From: Paracoccus sp. SMMA_5_TC
Lineage (GTDB): Bacteria; Pseudomonadota; Alphaproteobacteria; Rhodobacterales; Rhodobacteraceae
Reading direction: 5' to 3'
Assembly (NCBI RefSeq): GCF_009696685.2
Contig: NZ_CP102355.1
Span: forward strand, 372,001-436,000
DNA: 64,000 nucleotides
In this document: positions 200 through 14,199 of the stretch, piece after piece
Numbering within the stretch: the first letter of the stretch is position 1
How the letters are laid out: every line of letters starts with the position of its first letter
Translations under genes and position numbers: made by a program
Notes under the pieces: model-generated
What the model was told of the DNA's origin: nothing
What the model saw: only the letters and a program-made list of their open reading frames with translations
The model's database searches: none

Positions 200-589
200 T
201 CAAAGCACGACGATCGCGCCCAGACCCATGCGGGCCAGCGCGTAGATGGCCGCGGCGATCACCGTCCAGCCAAGGATGACAGAAAAGATGATCGCGGCCT
301 TGCGGGCGGTGCCCTGCAGATAGTCGTCGATCATGATCCGGGTGCCCTTGATGAAATGCACCATGCCCACGGCAACGAACAGCCCGGTGATCAGCGCCGG
401 GATCGGTCGCCCGAAATAGACCAGAAGTTGCTGATGCGGCAGGCCGATGGCGCGGGCCACCACGATCATGAACAGCGGCGTCAGGATCAGCAGCGCGACC
501 GCAGTCACCGTCATTGCCCAATGATGCAGCGTGCCCTGATGGGCCGAACCCAGGCCCTGCGCAGCCTTGCGGGGGGTGATATAGCGCAT
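200..589 (-). CDS. sdhD: Succinate dehydrogenase membrane anchor subunit SdhD
   Basis: This 129-residue protein has three hydrophobic membrane segments at about residues 25-46, 63-82 and 96-118. His78 is followed eleven and twelve residues later by Asp89 and Tyr90, the same spacing as haem-ligand His71 and quinone-site Asp82/Tyr83 of E. coli SdhD, so it should carry the haem b ligand and part of the ubiquinone site of complex II. It sits between sdhC (12 bases upstream) and sdhA (10 bases downstream) in one operon. Length and segment count are normal for the family, and I see nothing unusual in it. Confidence 0.93.
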   Translation of the reverse strand: MRYITPRKAAQGLGSAHQGTLHHWAMTVTAVALLILTPLFMIVVARAIGLPHQQLLVYFGRPIPALITGLFVAVGMVHFIKGTRIMIDDYLQGTARKAAIIFSVILGWTVIAAAIYALARMGLGAIVVL

Positions 590-601
590 CTGCCGCCCTC
601 C

Positions 602-994
602 TTAGAACACGAAGAAGATGATCAGGGTCAGCACGGCCAGAATTACCGAACCGGCGATCAGCGCCTGGCTGGATTTCTGCGCCTGGTCGATTTCCAGCCC
701 ATAGCCGGCGTCATAGAACAGGTGCCGCAGCCCGGCCAGCAGGTGATACCACAGCGCCCACATCGACCCGGTCAGGATCAGAAAGCCCAGCCAGGACCGC
801 ACCACCCAATCGGCGGCAGCGAAGGCACGCGGCGAGGCCACGGCGGCGACCAGCCACCAGACGATCAGCACGATGCCCGCCACCAGCGCATGGCCGGTGA
901 TGCGGGTCAGGATCGAGGTGATGGCGGCAAGGGGCAGGCGATAGACCTGCAGATGCGGTGACAGCGGCCGGTTTCCCCGGTTGACGTCAGCCAT
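602..994 (-). CDS. sdhC: Succinate dehydrogenase cytochrome b556 subunit SdhC
   Basis: The 130-residue protein opens with the family signature RPLSPHLQVYRLP at residues 9-21 and has three membrane helices. Ser27 and Arg31 fall at the same numbers as the quinone-site residues of E. coli SdhC, and the later YHLLAGLRHLFYD segment supplies the haem-ligand histidine. I chose the ATG at 994-992 because an AGGAGA ribosome-binding site lies about 7 bases upstream; the frame stays open further but has no comparable site. It is the first gene of sdhCDA. The 292-base space before it carries a paired GTGATCAC operator (1143-1173) and a candidate promoter (1069-1096). Confidence 0.95.
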   Translation of the reverse strand: MADVNRGNRPLSPHLQVYRLPLAAITSILTRITGHALVAGIVLIVWWLVAAVASPRAFAAADWVVRSWLGFLILTGSMWALWYHLLAGLRHLFYDAGYGLEIDQAQKSSQALIAGSVILAVLTLIIFFVF

Positions 995-1068: not shown

Positions 1069-1096
1069 CTTCTAGTCCAATATTTCCCGCTGTCAC
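1069..1096 (-). promoter_or_regulatory. Candidate sigma-70 promoter of sdhCDA
   Basis: On the minus strand a GTGACA hexamer (1096-1091) is followed after 16 bases by TAGAAG (1074-1069), matching the -35/-10 consensus at 5 and 4 of 6 positions. It would start transcription about 65-70 bases before the sdhC ATG. This is a hexamer match only; the position relative to the operator at 1143-1173 is consistent with upstream activation. Confidence 0.35.
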
Positions 1097-1142
1097 GGGC
1101 CGACGGCGGCATTGCGGCGTTTGCCGGCAGATTTTCCGATTT

Positions 1143-1173
1143 TGTGATCACGCAAACGCCAGCCGTGATCACA
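1143..1173. promoter_or_regulatory. Paired GTGATCAC palindromes, putative operator of sdhCDA
   Basis: Two perfect GTGATCAC octamers lie at 1144-1151 and 1165-1172, with centres exactly 21 bp apart, two helical turns, between the mch stop and the sdhC start. The outer flanks extend the symmetry (T before the first copy, A after the second). The same two-site arrangement with the same spacing stands upstream of sucC at 6065-6093. I infer binding by one dimeric regulator to two phased sites; the regulator is not identified. CceR and AkgR, known regulators of central carbon metabolism in alphaproteobacteria, are candidates to test. Confidence 0.7.
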
Positions 1174-5945: not shown

Positions 5946-5971
5946 TCGCCCGCGCGACCGGATCCCGATTG

Positions 5972-6003
5972 CCCCTGCAGGTTCGCCCTGCAGGGGTTTT
6001 TCC
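5972..6003 (+). terminator. Rho-independent terminator of mdh
   Basis: A perfect 10-bp stem (CCCCTGCAGG at 5972-5981 with CCTGCAGGGG at 5987-5996), a five-base loop and a TTTTTCC tail, 27 bases after the mdh stop. Confidence 0.9.
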
Positions 6004-6064: not shown

Positions 6065-6093
6065 GTGATCACACGCCGAATTAGCGTGATCAC
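6065..6093. promoter_or_regulatory. Paired GTGATCAC palindromes, putative operator of the suc operon
   Basis: Two perfect GTGATCAC octamers at 6065-6072 and 6086-6093, centres 21 bp apart, flanked outside by TTTT and AAA so that the whole 36-bp region is close to symmetric. This duplicates the arrangement before sdhC (1143-1173). A perfect TATAAT box with no good -35 follows at 6133-6138; the sites would be centred near -55 and -76 relative to the expected start, which suits an activator better than a simple repressor. The regulator is unknown. Confidence 0.75.
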
Positions 6094-6115
6094 AAACCAG
6101 GCTTTCCTGCCCCTT

Positions 6116-6123
6116 TTGCGCAA
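6116..6123. promoter_or_regulatory. TTGCGCAA palindrome in the sucC promoter region
   Basis: A perfect TTGCGCAA octamer (extended TTTTGCGCAATT) lies between the paired operator and the TATAAT box, where a -35 element would be expected. It is shared with the mcl2 and lytic transglycosylase upstream regions. Confidence 0.3.
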
Positions 6124-6132
6124 TTGGCCACG

Positions 6133-6138
6133 TATAAT
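6133..6138 (+). promoter_or_regulatory. -10 element of the suc operon promoter
   Basis: A perfect TATAAT, unusual in this GC-rich sequence, 62 bases before the sucC ATG. No TTGACA-like hexamer stands 16-18 bases upstream, so the promoter probably needs an activator. Confidence 0.5.
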
Positions 6139-6199
6139 GCTTTGGCCGCCCGAGGGGATATGCCACAAGCCCCGCAACCGACAACTGCGGGGAAGCACC

Positions 6200-7393
6200 A
6201 TGAACATCCATGAATACCAGGCCAAGGCGCTGCTGCGCCAATATGGCGCGCCGGTCTCGGACGGGCGGGTGGTGATGAAGGCCGACGAGGCCAAGGCCGC
6301 CGCCGGCGAACTGGACGGCCCGCTCTGGGTCGTCAAGGCCCAGATCCATGCCGGAGGCCGTGGCAAGGGTCACTTCAAGGAAAAGGAAGCCGGTGAAAAG
6401 GGCGGCGTGCGGCTGGCCAAATCGGTCGCCGAGGCCGAGGAGCTGACCCGGCAGATGCTGGGCCGCACCCTGGTCACCCACCAGACCGGCGAAACCGGCA
6501 AGCAGGTGAACCGCATCTATATCGAGGATGGCAGCGACATCGCGCGCGAACTGTATCTGGCGCTGCTGGTCGATCGCGGCACCTCGCGCATCAGCTTCGT
6601 CGCCTCGACCGAAGGCGGCATGGACATCGAGGAAGTTGCCGCCAAGACCCCCGAAAAGATCGTCAGCTTCAGCGTCGATCCCGCCTCGGGCCTGTCGGAT
6701 TTCCATGGTCGCCGCGTGGCCTTTGCCTTGGGCCTTGAAGGCGCCCAGGTCAAGCAATGCGTGCAGCTGGTCAAGAATCTCTATCGCATGTTCATCGAGC
6801 GCGACATGGAGATGCTGGAGATCAACCCGCTGATCGTGACGCCCGAAGGCAACATCAAGTGCCTGGACGCCAAGATGGGCTTCGACAACAACGCGCTTTA
6901 TCGCCAGCCCGACATCCTGGCGCTGCGCGACGAGACCGAGGAAGATCCCAAGGAGCTGGCCGCCTCCAAGTTCGACCTGAACTATATCGCGCTGGACGGC
7001 GAGATCGGTTGCATGGTCAACGGCGCGGGCCTGGCCATGGCCACCATGGACATCATCAAGCTTTACGGCGCCGAACCGGCGAACTTCCTGGATGTCGGCG
7101 GCGGTGCCAGCAAGGAAAAGGTGACCGAGGCGTTCAAGATCATCACCTCGGACCCGAATGTCAAAGGCATCCTGGTCAACATCTTCGGCGGGATCATGCG
7201 CTGCGACATCATTGCCGAGGGCATCATCGCCGCGGTCAAGGAGGTCGGCCTGCAAGTGCCGCTGGTCGTGCGGCTCGAAGGCACCAACGTCGATCTGGGC
7301 AAGAAGATCATCGGTGAATCGGGGCTGAACGTGATCGCGGCCGACGACCTGTCGGATGCCGCCCAGAAGATCGTGAAAGCGGTGAAAGGATAA
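6200..7393 (+). CDS. sucC: Succinate-CoA ligase (ADP-forming) beta subunit
   Basis: This 397-residue protein begins with the family signature [19 protein letters not shown]. It has an N-terminal ATP-grasp domain (about residues 1-235, with [15 protein letters not shown] for nucleotide binding and LEINPLIVT) and a C-terminal CoA-ligase domain with the glycine-rich [10 protein letters not shown] segment. It binds nucleotide and succinate in the SucC-SucD complex, making GTP or ATP from succinyl-CoA. I take the ATG at 6200, with a GGGGAA site upstream, because the longer open frame covers the operator and promoter region. It is the first gene of sucCD-GT-sucAB-x-MAPEG-lpd. Confidence 0.97.
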
Positions 7394-7397
7394 GAAG

Positions 7398-8282
<885 letters not shown>

Positions 8283-8298: not shown

Positions 8299-8327
8299 TT
8301 GACTTGGGCATGGCCCCTGCCTACCTT
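8299..8327 (+). promoter_or_regulatory. Candidate promoter between sucD and the glycosyltransferase gene
   Basis: TTGACT (8299-8304), a 17-base spacer and TACCTT (8322-8327) match the sigma-70 consensus at 5 and 4 positions. It would drive the glycosyltransferase, sucA, sucB and lpd independently of sucCD. It is a sequence match only. Confidence 0.4.
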
Positions 8328-8475
8328 CGGGGGGCACCCCGTCAGCGGGGACCATGCCAGAACCCTTCAGCTCGGGTGCCATAGTGGACCGCCGCCCTCG
8401 CCTGCCCCTGTTTCGCCCCGCTGTGGCCCCGCCGTGCCCCAGCCTGTCGGGCGCTGCCGTTCCGCGGGGCCGGGC

Positions 8476-9663
8476 ATGAACGCGCCCGCGAACCCCGACC
8501 GTCGCGGTCAGGCCCGCGACTGGGCGCTGTGCGTCGCCACCTACAACCGCGGCGCCATGTTGCTGAACTGCGTGCGCCACGCCCTGGCCTCGACCCTGCC
8601 GCCTTCGGAAATCGTGATCATCGATGCCAGCGACGACTGGCAGGCCAACCGCGACGCCGTCGCCGCGCTGGTGGCCCAGGCCGGGAGCTGCCCGCTGCAC
8701 TATCAGCCGGCGCGGCGCCGGTCGCTGACGGCGCAGCGCAACCAGGCCGTGGCGCTGGCCAGCGCCGACATCCTGTTCATGATCGACGACGATGCCATGC
8801 TGGCGCCTGCGACCGCGCAGCGCATCATGGACCATTACCGCGCCGACACCGCAGGCCGCATCGTCGCGCTGTCCTGCTGCCCCGTTGCGGAAGATACCGC
8901 CGCCCCGGATGCCGAAATCGGTGCCCAGGCGCGCAAGCAGGTAAATCGCGCCGGCCGGCTGGTGCAGCAGCAGCCGGCGGCCATGCGCAGGCTGACGGAT
9001 TTCGCGCTGCGCCATCTGCTGATGATCCCGGCCGACCAGCGCTTTGTGGGCTATGACAGCCCGGCGCGCCGCTGGCAGGGCGACGACCGCCTGCCGGCGC
9101 CGCTGGCGCGGGTGGATTTCATCGTGGGCTTTGCCCTGACGCTGCGGCGCTGGGTGGCGCAGGCCGAACCCTTTGACGAGGGTCTGGTCGGCAGCTGCAT
9201 GGCCGAGGATCTGGACGCCAGCTATCGCTTTGGCCGCCACGGGCTGCTGGGCTTTGCCCCCGACGCGCCGATCCGGCACCTCGAGGCTGCGGCCGGGCGC
9301 GACCGCCGGCGCATCAACAGCACCCTGGCCCTGCTGAACGTCGCCTATTTCGTTCGGCGCAACAGCGACCGCCCGCGCCGCGATCTGGCCCGCTACGCGC
9401 TGTGGTATCTGCGCATGACGCTGGCCGAATTGCCCAAGGATCTTGCCGGCGGCCGCTGGCGCCTGCCGCAACTGCGCGGCGCGCTGGACGCCGGACGCCA
9501 TCTGCCGGCGCTGCTGCGCCAGACACGCGCCGACCTGCCCGGCTGGTATCAGACAATTCAGACCAGGCTTGTTTCCGGCCCTGGCCGGAACAGCCCTCAG
9601 CCCGAAACCAATGCCCCCCGCATCGGGGCCAATGGACAGAACTTTCCGGAGGCAAAGCCATGA
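8476..9663 (+). CDS. Family 2 (GT-A fold) glycosyltransferase inside the suc operon
   Basis: This 395-residue protein shows the GT-A pattern: CVATYNRG at residues 19-26, EIVIIDASDD at 45-54 and the metal-binding FMIDDDAM at 101-108 (DDD motif), followed by an acidic EDLDASYRFGRHG acceptor-region motif. It should transfer a sugar from a nucleotide-sugar donor in the cytoplasm; donor and acceptor cannot be told. No signal peptide or membrane helix is evident. The start at 8476 is the only ATG placing the N-terminal strand in frame; the upstream frame is not gene-like. Its stop overlaps the sucA start as ATGA, so the two are translationally coupled, an unexpected neighbour for a TCA-cycle gene. 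Confidence 0.85.
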   Translation: MNAPANPDRRGQARDWALCVATYNRGAMLLNCVRHALASTLPPSEIVIIDASDDWQANRDAVAALVAQAGSCPLHYQPARRRSLTAQRNQAVALASADILFMIDDDAMLAPATAQRIMDHYRADTAGRIVALSCCPVAEDTAAPDAEIGAQARKQVNRAGRLVQQQPAAMRRLTDFALRHLLMIPADQRFVGYDSPARRWQGDDRLPAPLARVDFIVGFALTLRRWVAQAEPFDEGLVGSCMAEDLDASYRFGRHGLLGFAPDAPIRHLEAAAGRDRRRINSTLALLNVAYFVRRNSDRPRRDLARYALWYLRMTLAELPKDLAGGRWRLPQLRGALDAGRHLPALLRQTRADLPGWYQTIQTRLVSGPGRNSPQPETNAPRIGANGQNFPEAKP

Positions 9664-12626
9664 ACGATCAGTCCCCCAACGCAGCCTTCCACGATTCCAG
9701 CTTTCTGCAAGGTCACAACGCCACCTATGTCGAACAGCTTTACGGGCAGTGGGCGCAGGATCCCGGCGCGGTCGACGCGGCCTGGGACGCGTTCTTCCGC
9801 AGCCTGGGCGATGACGAAGGCACCGTCACCCGCGAGGCGCGCGGCGCCAGCTGGCAGCGCAAGGACTGGCCGCCGATGCCTGGCGACGACACCACCGCAG
9901 CCCTGACCGGCGAATGGCCGATGATGCCCAAGGGCGAGGCCAAGGCAGCGCTGGACAAGATCGCCGCCAAGGCCGGGGAACGCGGCGTCAGCCTCAGCGA
10001 TGACCAGCTCAAGCGCGCAGTGCTGGACAGCGTGCGCGCCATCATGCTGATCCGCGCCTTCCGCATTCGTGGCCACCTGCACGCCGATCTTGATCCTCTG
10101 GGCATGCGCGAGATCCCCGATCACGGCGAACTGAAGCCCGAAACCTACGGCTTTACCGCCGCCGACATGGACCGCCCCATCTTCATCGACAACGTCCTGG
10201 GTCTGCAGATCGCCACCCTGCGCCAGATCGTCGAACTGATGCGGCGCACATATTGCGGCACCTTTGCCATCCAGTTCATGCATATCTCGGACCCCGAGGA
10301 GGCCGCCTGGCTCAAGGAGCGGATCGAGGGCTACGGCAAGGAGATCGCCTTTACCCGCGAGGGCCGCCGCGCCATCCTCAACAAGCTGGTCGAGGCCGAG
10401 GGCTTCGAGAAGTTCCTGCATGTCAAATACATGGGCACCAAGCGTTTCGGCCTGGACGGGGGCGAGGCGCTGATCCCGGCGATGGAACAGATCATCAAGC
10501 GCGGCGGCGCGCTGGGGGTCAAGGAAATCGTCATCGGCATGCCCCACCGCGGCCGCCTGTCGGTGCTGGCCAATGTGATGGGCAAGCCCTATCGCGCCAT
10601 CTTCCACGAATTCCAGGGCGGCAGCTACAAGCCCGACGAGGTGGACGGCTCGGGCGATGTGAAATATCACCTTGGTGCCTCCTCGGACCGCACCTTCGAC
10701 GACAATACCGTCCACCTGTCGCTGACCGCCAACCCCAGCCATCTCGAGGCCGTGAATCCGGTGGTGCTGGGCAAGGTGCGGGCCAAACAGGATCAACTGT
10801 CTGACCAGGCCCATCGCACCGCGGTGCTGCCAATCCTGCTGCACGGGGACGCCGCATTTGCCGGTCAGGGCATCGTGGCGGAATGTTTCCAGCTGTCGGG
10901 GATTCGCGGTCATCGCACCGGCGGCACCATCCATATCGTGGTCAACAACCAGATCGGCTTTACCACGGCGCCGCATTTCAGCCGCACCTCGCCCTATCCC
11001 ACCGACATCGCGCTGATGGTCGAGGCGCCGATCTTTCACGTGAACGGCGACGACCCCGAGGCGGTCGTCCATGCCGCCCGCGTGGCAACCGAATTCCGGC
11101 AGAAATTCCACAAGGACGTGGTGCTGGACATCTTCTGCTATCGCCGCTTCGGTCACAACGAAGGCGATGAGCCGATGTTCACCAACCCGGCCATGTACAA
11201 GAAGATCAAGGGCCACAAGACCACGTTGCAGCTTTACACCGAGCGGCTGGTGGCCGACGGCCTGGTGCCCGCCGGCGAGATCGAGGAGATGAAGGCCGCC
11301 TTCCAGGCGCATCTGAACGAGGAGTTCGAGGTCGGCAAGAACTTCAAGCCGAACAAGGCCGACTGGCTGGACGGCAAGTGGTCGGGCCTGGAATCGCAGC
11401 ACGCCGAGGACAACCTGGGCCAGACCGGCATCAGTGCCGAAACCATGGCCGAGGTGGGCGGCGCGCTGACCCGCGTGCCCGAGGGCTTCGACCTGCACAA
11501 GACCGTGGGCCGGCTGCTCGAGGCCAAGAAACAGATGTTCGACACCGGAACCGGCTTCGACTGGGCCACGGGTGAGGCGCTGGCCTTTGGCTCGCTGCTG
11601 ATCGAGGGCCATCCGGTGCGGCTGGCGGGCCAGGATTCGACCCGCGGCACCTTCAGCCAGCGGCATTCGGCCTTCATCGACCAGAGCACCGAGGAACGCT
11701 ATTACCCGCTGAACCATATCCGCGGCGGCCAGGCGCGGTATGAGGTGATCGATTCCATGCTGTCGGAATATGCGGTCCTGGGGTTCGAATACGGCTATTC
11801 GCTGGCCGAACCGAACAGCCTGGTGATGTGGGAAGCCCAGTTCGGCGATTTCGCCAATGGCGCGCAGATCATGTTCGACCAGTTCATCACCTCGGGCGAA
11901 AAGAAGTGGCTGCGCATGTCGGGTCTGGTGATGCTGATGCCGCATGGCTACGAGGGCCAGGGCCCGGAACACAGTTCGGCCCGGCTGGAACGCTGGCTGC
12001 AGATGTGCGCCGAGGACAACTGGATCGTCGCCAACTGCACCACGCCGGCGAACTATTTCCACATCCTGCGCCGGCAGTTGAAACGGCCCTTCCGCAAGCC
12101 GCTGGTGCTGATGACGCCGAAATCGCTGCTGCGCCACCCGCTGGCGGTGTCGACCGCCGACGAGTTCCTGACCGGATCGGTGTTCAACCGCGTGCTGGCC
12201 GACGACGCCGATCGCGGCAAGTCCGAATTCAAGCTGGCCGCCGACGACAAAATCCGGCGCGTGGTGATCTGTTCGGGCAAGGTCTATTACGACCTGGTGC
12301 AGGCGCGCGACGCCGCCGGCGCCGATGACGTCTATATCCTGCGGCTGGAACAGTTTTATCCCTTCCCGGCGCAATCGATGTCCAAGGAACTGGAACGGTT
12401 CAAGCAGGCGGAAATCGTCTGGTGTCAGGAAGAGCCGAAGAACCAGGGCGCCTGGAGCTTTGTCGAGCCGAACATCGAATGGGTGCTGTCGCGCATTGGC
12501 GCCAAGCATGGCCGCGCCCGTTACGTCGGCCGCCATGCCGCCGCCTCGCCGGCGACGGGTCTGGCCTCGCGTCACAAGGCCGAACAGGAGGCGCTGGTGA
12601 ACGAAGCCATCACCATGGGGTCTTGA
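9660..12626 (+). CDS. sucA: 2-Oxoglutarate dehydrogenase E1 component
   Basis: This 988-residue thiamine-diphosphate enzyme decarboxylates 2-oxoglutarate and passes the succinyl group to lipoyl-SucB. The N-terminus contains the E2-binding-type segment [17 protein letters not shown]. The E1 core has [24 protein letters not shown] and [11 protein letters not shown], and the C-terminal part has the transketolase-like pyrimidine-binding domain with [13 protein letters not shown]. Length is normal. Its ATG overlaps the stop of the glycosyltransferase gene and lies after an AGGCAAAG site; sucB begins one base after its stop. It works in the cytosolic 2-oxoglutarate dehydrogenase complex with SucB and Lpd. 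Confidence 0.97.
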
Positions 12627-12627
12627 G

Positions 12628-14199
12628 ATGACCGTCGAGGTGCGTGTCCCCGCATTGGGGGAATCGGTATCCGAGGCGACGGTGGCCACCTGGTTCAAGA
12701 AACCGGGCGATGCCGTCGCCGTGGATGAAATGTTGTGCGAACTGGAAACCGACAAGGTGACGGTCGAGGTGCCCTCGCCCGTGGCGGGCAAGCTGGCCGA
12801 GATCGTCGCCGCCGAAGGGACGGTGGTGGCCCCCGACGCGCTGCTGGCCCAGATCGCCGAACAGGGGGCTGCGATCCCCGAAGAAACCTTGCCCAAGGCA
12901 GACGCGGGCGTGACAGCTCAGGAAGGACAAAGTGAGATGAGCGGAAAATCCGTCGATGTGATGGTGCCCACCCTGGGCGAAAGCGTGACCGAAGCCACGG
13001 TGGCCACCTGGTTCAAGAAGGTGGGCGATGCCGTCGCGCAGGATGAGATGCTGTGCGAGCTGGAAACCGACAAGGTGTCGGTCGAGGTGCCCAGCCCCGC
13101 CGCCGGCGTGTTGGCCGAAATCCTGGCGCCCGAAGGCACCACCGTCGATGCCAGCGCCCGGCTGGCCATCGTCACCGAAGGCGCCGCCGGCGCCGCCAGC
13201 CCTGCCCCGGCCGCGGGCGCGGCCGATGACCGCGCCACGGCCGCGCAGGCGGTGGAATCGCCCGGCGCCGGCCCGGAAACGCCCAAGCCCCGCGCCGATG
13301 TCGAGGATGCGCCCGCCGCGAAAAAGGCCATGGCCGAGGCCGGCCTGTCGCGCGATGCCGTCACCGGCACCGGCCGCGACGGTCGGGTGATGAAAGAGGA
13401 CGTGGCCCGCGCCGCCGCTGCGCCGGCGGTGAAATCGGCCGCCGCGCCCGCCCCGGCCCCGGCCCAGGCGCCGCGAAGCCCCAGCTCGGCCGAGGATGCT
13501 GCCCGCGAAGAGCGGGTCAAGATGACGCGCCTGCGCGCCACCATCGCCCGCCGGCTCAAGGATGCCCAGAACACCGCCGCCATCCTGACCACCTATAACG
13601 AGGTGGACATGAAGGCGATCATGGACCTGCGCAACGCCTACAAGGACCAGTTCGAAAAGAAGCACAAGGTCAAGCTGGGCTTCATGTCGTTCTTCGTGAA
13701 GGCCTGCTGCCACGCGCTGAAAGAGGTGCCCGAGGTCAATGCCGAGATCGACGGCGGCGACATCGTCTACAAGAACTTCGTGCATATGGGCGTCGCCGTG
13801 GGCACCCCCAACGGGCTGGTGGTGCCGGTGGTCCGCGATGCCGACCAGAAATCCTTTGCGCAGATCGAAAAGGAAATTGCCGAACTGGGGCTGCGGGCGC
13901 GTGACGGCAAGCTGACCATGGCCGAAATGCAGGGCGGCACCTTCACCATCTCGAACGGAGGGGGCTATGGGTCGCTGATGTCCTCGCCGATCCTGAACCC
14001 GCCGCAATCGGGCATCCTGGGCATGCACAAGATCCAGGATCGTCCGGTGGTGGTCGATGGCCAGATCGTCATCCGGCCGATGATGTATCTGGCGCTGAGC
14101 TACGATCACCGCATCGTCGACGGCAAGGGCGCCGTCACCTTCCTTGTCCGCGTCAAGGAGGCGCTCGAGGATCCGCGCCGCCTGCTGATGGATCTGTGA
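12628..14199 (+). CDS. sucB: Dihydrolipoyl succinyltransferase (E2) with two lipoyl domains
   Basis: This 523-residue E2 core subunit carries two tandem lipoyl domains rather than the single one of E. coli SucB: residues about 2-76 with ETDKVTV (lipoyl Lys43) and about 108-182 with ETDKVSV (Lys149). An Ala/Pro-rich linker follows, then the E3-binding domain around residues 235-275, another linker, and the catalytic domain ending in HRIVDG (His494, Asp498). It moves the succinyl group to CoA. The second lipoyl domain begins at an in-frame ATG (12937, residue 104) preceded by GGAAGGA, so an internally started one-lipoyl form is possible. Two-lipoyl SucB proteins occur in the Rhodobacteraceae. 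Confidence 0.96.

Follow-up and report, generated by a model that had tools for sequence, protein, structure and literature searches.

The first kilobases of a 64,000-nucleotide stretch of the Paracoccus sp. SMMA_5_TC chromosome (hereafter the window) raise the question of why two operons of the tricarboxylic acid (TCA) cycle are each preceded by the same pair of short palindromes, and which regulator would read them. An earlier note, made from the letters of the window, had placed four copies of the octamer GTGATCAC at 1144-1151, 1165-1172, 6065-6072 and 6086-6093, and a position check recovered all four, in two pairs that each have a 13-bp spacer and centres 21 bp apart, one before sdhC and the other before sucC. 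The first twin operator, GTGATCAC-N13-GTGATCAC at 1144..1172 (no strand assigned), ends 149 bp before sdhC (succinate dehydrogenase cytochrome b subunit; 602..994, reverse strand), followed on the same strand by sdhD (200..589), and the operon runs past the window edge to sdhA, as read from the fetched locus L076. The second, of the same form at 6065..6093 (again without strand), ends 107 bp before sucC (succinyl-CoA synthetase beta subunit; 6200..7393, forward strand), with sucD (alpha subunit; 7398..8282), sucA (2-oxoglutarate dehydrogenase E1; 9660..12626) and sucB (dihydrolipoamide succinyltransferase E2; 12628..14199) on the same strand. These are ORFs whose identities we take from sequence knowledge, as is the name of a glycosyltransferase-like ORF (8299-9663, same strand) that sits between sucD and sucA as an odd guest in the suc operon. 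A terminator-like hairpin at 5971-5997, located 3' of mdh and immediately before the suc operator, may keep mdh off the suc transcript.

How far these copies depart from chance depends on whether the octamer or the pair is counted. The earlier note had put the octamer at well under one expected occurrence per 64 kb, which proved too low, as shuffles of the window gave a mean of 1.02 per 64 kb. The window itself holds a fifth copy that the note had missed, at 1365-1372 (no strand assigned) within what is presumably a mesaconyl-CoA hydratase-like ORF; 1 of 100 shuffles reached five copies, and this lone copy is background, outside the operator system. Across the 3.12 Mb genome there are 42 single octamers against approximately 50 extrapolated from the window shuffles, and since this is no more than chance we dropped the single octamer as a genome-wide regulon marker. 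The note's contention that the copies are not chance therefore fails for the octamer but holds for the pair: from 42 scattered sites in 3.12 Mb simple arithmetic predicts about 0.0006 pairs at exactly N13, and a whole-genome pattern scan found two, only before sdhC and sucC. With up to three mismatches allowed the pair pattern has 51 matches in the genome, the two exact pairs among them. As a control, the pattern read backwards gave zero matches in every genome of our own, genus, other-family and family pair scans, a weak control because it contains CTAG and also gives zero for the single octamer.

The exact N13 pair was found in all 61 genomes of the genus (60 relatives and our own) and in 338 of 394 genomes of the family sampled at about one per genus (305 of 347 among those of good quality), where the commonest count was two copies per genome, and in none of the 40 genomes sampled from the other families of this class. 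All 18 named genomes chosen among the 80 named loci of the candidate regulator gene akgR (described below) possess a pair with an N12 or N13 spacer, including one before sdhC in P. denitrificans DSM 413, one before sucC in Rhodobacter capsulatus, and two in Cereibacter ovatus. Whereas per-genome pair counts are complete, the genes downstream were read from 151 fetched loci with some pair, taken among the matches listed. An N12 or N13 spacer was found in 146 of these, and every one of the 146 precedes a TCA-cycle gene (sdhC 75, sucC 68, sucA 2, fumC 1), with the pair lying 107-191 bp (median 142) from the sdhC start codon and 96-178 bp (median 109.5) from that of sucC. A further 19 loci (18 from the named genomes plus L361; one of them, L343, is the same pair as L009) fell before sdhC in 11 cases and before sucC in 8. 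The earlier note had called for such a scan of genome and relatives with the downstream genes listed; sdhC and sucC predominate, and the pair is neither scattered away from promoters nor unconserved in relatives, keeping its TCA-operon location family-wide.

A few loci depart from this scheme. One genome carries a third exact N13 pair (L062, G141:C16:228293-228321) before a gene that we take from sequence knowledge to be the class II fumarase fumC, and this pair adds a further TCA enzyme to the predicted regulon of a single genus. At L144 and L198 the order mdh-pair-sucA replaces mdh-pair-sucC, the operator being kept with sucA. The five of the 151 loci with spacers of 4, 5, 22, 28 and 28 bp had no match to any of the genes probed, namely SdhC, SdhD, SdhA, Mch, Mcl, Mdh, SucC, SucA, FumC and AkgR. 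Of 13 extra odd-spacer loci ten likewise gave no probe match and three could be placed: L360, an N14 pair before sucC; L358, an N5 pair at akgR; and L361, an N5 pair formed by a third site adjoining an sdh N13 pair. The only other N14 locus, L359, ends at a contig end and had no probe match, and for spacers outside 12-14 bp, 14 of 16 loci matched none of the ten probes. Three loci (L356, L357 and L163, in G235, G141 and G263) have spacers of 22-23 bp, or about three helical turns, and lie near no probed gene.

When 198 family genomes were scanned with any spacer from 0 to 30 bp allowed, 66 pairs in 33 genomes were distributed as N12 31, N13 22, N14 2 and other 11, a tally in which N12 is over-represented because the 33 genomes were picked for fewer N13 pairs. 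Spacers are mostly N12 or N13, which sets most centres two helical turns (20 or 21 bp) apart. A is frequent in the outer flanks and not in the inner ones (A at position 2 in 160 of 222 outside versus 28 of 222 inside); since a lone palindrome should be flanked alike on its two sides, the pair has the look of a single unit. In two loci, L274 (a Gemmobacter nectariphilus MAG) and L278 (Pseudotabrizicola sediminis), three copies of GTGATCAC stand at N13 steps before sucC.

Which protein would bind such a unit? A domain search returned 16 GntR-domain matches in this genome, and only one of these has GTGATCAC within 100 bp upstream. This gene, the candidate akgR (G000:C1:1929045-1929689), carries the octamer at -17 to -10 from its ATG and encodes a 214-residue protein with both a GntR winged helix-turn-helix (PF00392, 48.3 bits) and an FCD domain (PF07729, 63.1 bits) above cut-off, placing it in the FadR/FCD subfamily of the GntR family. 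Its closest sequence match among solved structures is McbR (4p9f, presumably from E. coli; E 2e-19). The gene lies 1.55 Mb along the contig from the sdh and suc operons, and none of the 16 GntR matches falls in the 18-kb stretch of this genome around sdh (L076). RSP_0981 of R. sphaeroides is presumably AkgR. That GntR-type protein is the predicted regulator of sucCD (RSP_0967-6), sdh (RSP_0974-6) and 2-oxoglutarate dehydrogenase (RSP_0965-62) according to PMC4344238, and PMC6365646 reports GTGATCAC as an AkgR binding motif and AkgR as an activator. Among the candidates that the earlier note had named, AkgR therefore fits on both reported motif (PMC6365646) and predicted targets (PMC4344238). 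While the identity of the motif and the activator role are taken from these papers, the sites, their spacing, conservation and targets, the co-occurrence and the A/T phasing described here are our own observations.

The best 80 named relatives, of at least 565, are 72-94% identical to the candidate protein, RSP_0981 itself lying outside this comparison. In 13 of these 80 best named loci akgR is found within approximately 11.5 kb of sdhC or sucC, the neighbourhoods extending at most 10 kb on each side and several ending at contig ends. In L282 and L297 the akgR relative lies 7-10 kb from sdhC, as the RSP numbering would suggest, and in two Cereibacter species no probed TCA gene was found within 10 kb of it.

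Regulator and pair also share much of their distribution. Taking as a strong akgR homologue any match with E<1e-60, a cut set in this analysis, the 394 family genomes divide into 328 with both regulator and exact N13 pair, 28 with the regulator only, 10 with the pair only and 28 with neither (Fisher odds ratio 33, p 2.9e-19, a value that ignores the kinship of the genomes and, since they are related, is not a true probability). The ten genomes with a pair and no strong akgR are G119, G132, G195, G213, G355, G363, G372, G418, G424 and G433; seven of them are less than 90% complete, and G213 is 100% complete in 320 contigs. Among the 56 genomes lacking an exact N13 pair, several have exact N12 pairs, and 16 have an N13 pair with one mismatch while 40 do not; when 16 such one-mismatch loci were fetched, 6 lay at sdhC or sucC and 10 elsewhere. 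The 28 genomes lacking both regulator and pair gave SucC matches in 26, comprising 24 true sucC genes (71-83% identity) and 6 paralogues (50-53%), and no exact GTGATCAC occurs in the 400 bp upstream of any of these 30 genes, the closest approaches to a pair having three mismatches (L309), four (L327) or at least five (all others). Across the sampled genomes, then, losses of the regulator and of the pair tend to coincide.

This distribution bears on a rival reading in which akgR only accompanies the true regulator, some other transcription factor such as a second GntR-type protein of GTGATCAC specificity. The ten genomes with a pair and no strong akgR match speak for this reading, and a precedent is at hand in the GntR regulator of a Pseudomonas deoxyribonate cluster, 32% identical to AkgR, which is proposed in a passage of PMC6365646 to use GTGATCAC. 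On the other hand, the remaining 15 GntR matches of this genome have no octamer within 100 bp upstream, akgR and the pair tend to vanish together, akgR lies near suc or sdh in the 13 named loci counted above, and the literature assigns the motif to AkgR (PMC6365646). We consider such another regulator very improbable.

The earlier note had also named the LacI-type protein CceR, and a role for it at these promoters deserves mention on published grounds. For R. sphaeroides, PMC4344238 predicts control of sdh by RSP_1663, presumably CceR, and both succinate and 2-oxoglutarate dehydrogenase are stated to belong to the CceR regulon of that species (PMC11323563). However, the CceR motif predicted in PMC4344238, [AGT]GTT-N6-8-AAC[ACT], is unmatched by the GTGATCAC pair, and in P. 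denitrificans sdh and 2-oxoglutarate dehydrogenase fall outside the CceR regulon (PMC11323563). Motif and P. denitrificans regulon both speak against this candidate, and we find it hardly credible that CceR binds the pair. The twin palindromes are, from these comparisons, very probably docking sites for AkgR.

In the window, sdhC has a putative -35 element GTGACA (1091..1096, reverse strand), whose first base lies 48 bp past the operator, and, after a 16-bp spacer, a putative -10 element TAGAAG (1069..1074, reverse strand), both proposed from sequence and alignment; the 47-bp linker (1097..1143, reverse strand) is where the A/T tracts of aligned relatives fall. The corresponding 47-bp linker before sucC (6094..6140, forward strand) has A/T tracts at approximately 10-bp steps in both its sequence and the aligned profile, and leads to a putative -35 element TTTGGC (6141..6146, forward strand) that is marked by a conserved T and is less securely assigned than that of sdh. 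The suc core promoter, its -10 element included, is weakly defined, the TATAAT at 6133-6138 within the linker falling in an A/T rung, and a consensus scan returned no sigma-70 promoter at the sdh or suc region.

For relatives, promoter counts were made on 143 loci (32 of the Paracoccus set and 111 others), with the other eight of the 151 (L062, L144, L145, L151, L154, L156, L163 and L198) as well as L338-L355 and L361 standing outside them. Of the 23 Paracoccus-set sdh loci, 20 have a -35-like GTGAC that begins 47-50 bp past the pair; in the 52 other sdh loci it starts at 57-62 bp in 39, at 47-50 bp in 1, at 68-72 bp in 2 and at 78-82 bp in 2, and is lacking in 8. In total 64 of 75 sdh loci have GTGAC in one of these four ranges and 11 do not. 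The operator-promoter distance clusters near 48, 59, 70 and 80 bp, steps of roughly 10-11 bp; four random positions were as regular in 108 of 5000 trials, which makes helical stepping suggestive and not proven. At suc, a T occupies position 48 in 49 of 59 non-Paracoccus loci.

Between operator and -35 region, A/T content oscillates with a period of about 10 bp and in the same phase relative to the operator in sdh and suc, with peaks near 2, 11, 22, 32 and 42 past the operator. The amplitude over positions 5-47 is 0.129 for sdh (52 loci) and 0.150 for suc (59 loci), and none of 1000 random circular shifts reached either signal, the null maxima being 0.057 and 0.042. Counted from the conserved -35 as it stands, the rungs at suc would lie near -82, -72, -62, -52 and -42, with the operator dyads at about -87 and -108.

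Bacterial promoters are known to tend in general to carry phased A/T tracts on their upstream side, and the ladder and fixed distance could be a trait of strong promoters in these GC-rich organisms that owes nothing to AkgR. Consistent with this, the periodic signal does not vanish altogether beyond the operator, with upstream amplitudes (-63 to -6) of 0.029 and 0.030 for sdh and suc that were reached by 1 and 0 of 1000 shifts (the mostly coding downstream stretch gave 0.027 and 0.020, reached by 24 and 11), and sucC regions of AkgR-less genomes (24 loci) have a phase-free 10-bp periodicity of 0.096, slightly above the 0.058 of shuffled sequence. Yet this phase-free measure rises more than twofold, to 0.221, in suc loci with AkgR sites (50 loci; p 3.8e-7), in a comparison where the AkgR-less control is imperfect because GC content differs (47% with AkgR sites versus 55% without), and the aligned signal keeps a fixed phase to the operator and is lower by a factor of four to five on its upstream side. 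We lean slightly against a general promoter trait and regard it as a serious contender for the ladder and its fixed distance.

The same geometry bears on whether the pair might act as an RNA or cruciform structure and not as a protein operator, for which the attraction is that two identical palindromes could pair into a stem that closes a loop of 12-13 bases. Since the likely promoter is downstream of the pair, the pair should be absent from the transcript; single sites occur at akgR, and both the flank preferences and the phasing relative to the -35 region agree with a DNA-bound protein. We give such a structure next to no weight. The CceR, RNA-structure and cruciform readings were all set aside.

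Binding by AkgR may also extend to its own gene. An GTGATCAC octamer lies at most 60 bp upstream of akgR in 49 of the 80 best named loci (of at least 565 relatives), including 36 of 38 from Paracoccus, and is absent there in 31, both Cereibacter species among them; among 30 further loci, the best-scoring of matches in 376 genomes, it is present in 9 and absent in 21. Where present it often stands just after a TTGAC, about one promoter spacer on (L093-L098, L105, L112, L122 and named loci), and may overlap the -10 element, a position that suggests autorepression. Given its near-constant presence in Paracoccus and scattered occurrence in other genera, autoregulation seems labile.

Taken together, we hold with high confidence that the pairs are twin AkgR operators, at which two dimers on one DNA face, probably cooperative, would activate sdhC and sucC through a phased linker, akgR itself probably being autorepressed. 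The proposal of the earlier note that a single regulator jointly controls sdh and suc, with two dimers on one face, draws strong support from the comparison of genomes. In what we infer for cooperativity, mode of contact, start sites, autorepression and ligand, AkgR would act as a GntR/FCD-type activator with one dimer on each palindrome, two helical turns apart on the same face; the dimers would probably bind cooperatively and would activate sdhC and sucC from approximately 87 and 108 bp upstream of the presumed transcription starts. The A/T tracts every 10 bp or so would probably bend the linker DNA or dock the alpha subunits of RNA polymerase at minor-groove subsites, and the phasing of the linker would bring AkgR and polymerase together on the correct face. 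Through the single palindrome at the start of akgR, the protein would probably limit its own synthesis. Members of the FadR subfamily are described as binding small ligands, carboxylic acids among them (PMC4494728), and on this account a TCA-cycle acid may be the natural signal for AkgR.

In R. sphaeroides the regulator, its motif and its targets are already known or have been predicted, and given the reported AkgR motif, the predicted RSP_0981 targets and the co-occurrence of akgR with the pair, the link between regulator and operator is mostly known. What is possibly new is the reading of the pair as one unit with centres 20 or 21 bp apart, the A/T tracts at approximately 10-bp steps, and the sdh distance that changes in roughly helical steps. 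In the passages found in literature on GTGATCAC, AkgR, CceR and RSP_0981 other than the primary AkgR paper (Imam 2015), we came across no mention of a fixed twin spacing, a phased linker or a stepped distance. A fuller description, on which we are evenly divided, would be a Rhodobacteraceae TCA module consisting of a twin unit of about 35 bp, TTT-GTGATCAC-R-N10/11-Y-GTGATCAC-AAA, followed by about five phased A/T rungs (a curved or alpha-CTD-binding ladder) up to the -35 element, with distance changes only by whole turns and a tiny regulon comprising sdh, suc and, in some cases, fumC. According to a remark in the CceR study of P. denitrificans (PMC11323563), these enzymes must be governed by some other regulatory mechanism there, and the twin AkgR operator is a likely answer to that remark. 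More broadly, the operator shows how one small regulon could let a large bacterial family tie succinate dehydrogenase to both succinyl-CoA synthetase and 2-oxoglutarate dehydrogenase. To our knowledge activation from far upstream by GntR-type proteins is poorly understood, and the phased linker, if real, would be a natural library of hundreds of promoters on the role of DNA geometry in this process.

Several known systems resemble parts of this arrangement. At E. coli class I CRP promoters and UP elements, the activator sits upstream of -35 at distances that vary by helical steps, and A/T subsites occur near -42, -52 and -62. The arrangement proposed here would resemble these promoters in all three features, namely the activator upstream of -35, the suggested helical-step distance and the A/T subsites, whereas the presumed operator centres (approximately -87 and -108) would be further upstream and about half a turn off the classic CRP positions. 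With respect to the site itself, GTGATCAC shares the GT...AC palindrome of FadR-subfamily GntR motifs as described in PMC4494728. The typical gap between GT and AC is 3 nt in FadR-type sites, with exceptions stated, whereas GTGATCAC has 4, the gap of most HutC-type sites in that same account (PMC4494728), even though the protein has an FCD domain. The nearest cooperative GntR assembly that we found described is E. coli NanR (PMC8012715), in which, as proposed here, several GntR-type dimers occupy spaced sites, three dimers binding cooperatively and in a spacing-sensitive manner. In contrast, NanR acts as a repressor from closely set direct repeats, (GGTATA)3 (PMC8012715), while the sites described here are full palindromes at a distance of 20 or 21 bp, well before a promoter that is reportedly activated. 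The AkgR regulon of R. sphaeroides has the same palindrome GTGATCAC (PMC6365646), the same target operons (PMC4344238) and a GntR-type regulator. Relative to that regulon, our data extend the system to Paracoccus and to most of approximately 390 genera sampled, and relative to those AkgR passages (PMC6365646, PMC4344238) the twin layout at 20 or 21 bp, the asymmetry of the flanks, the phased linker and the stepped distance were found only here.
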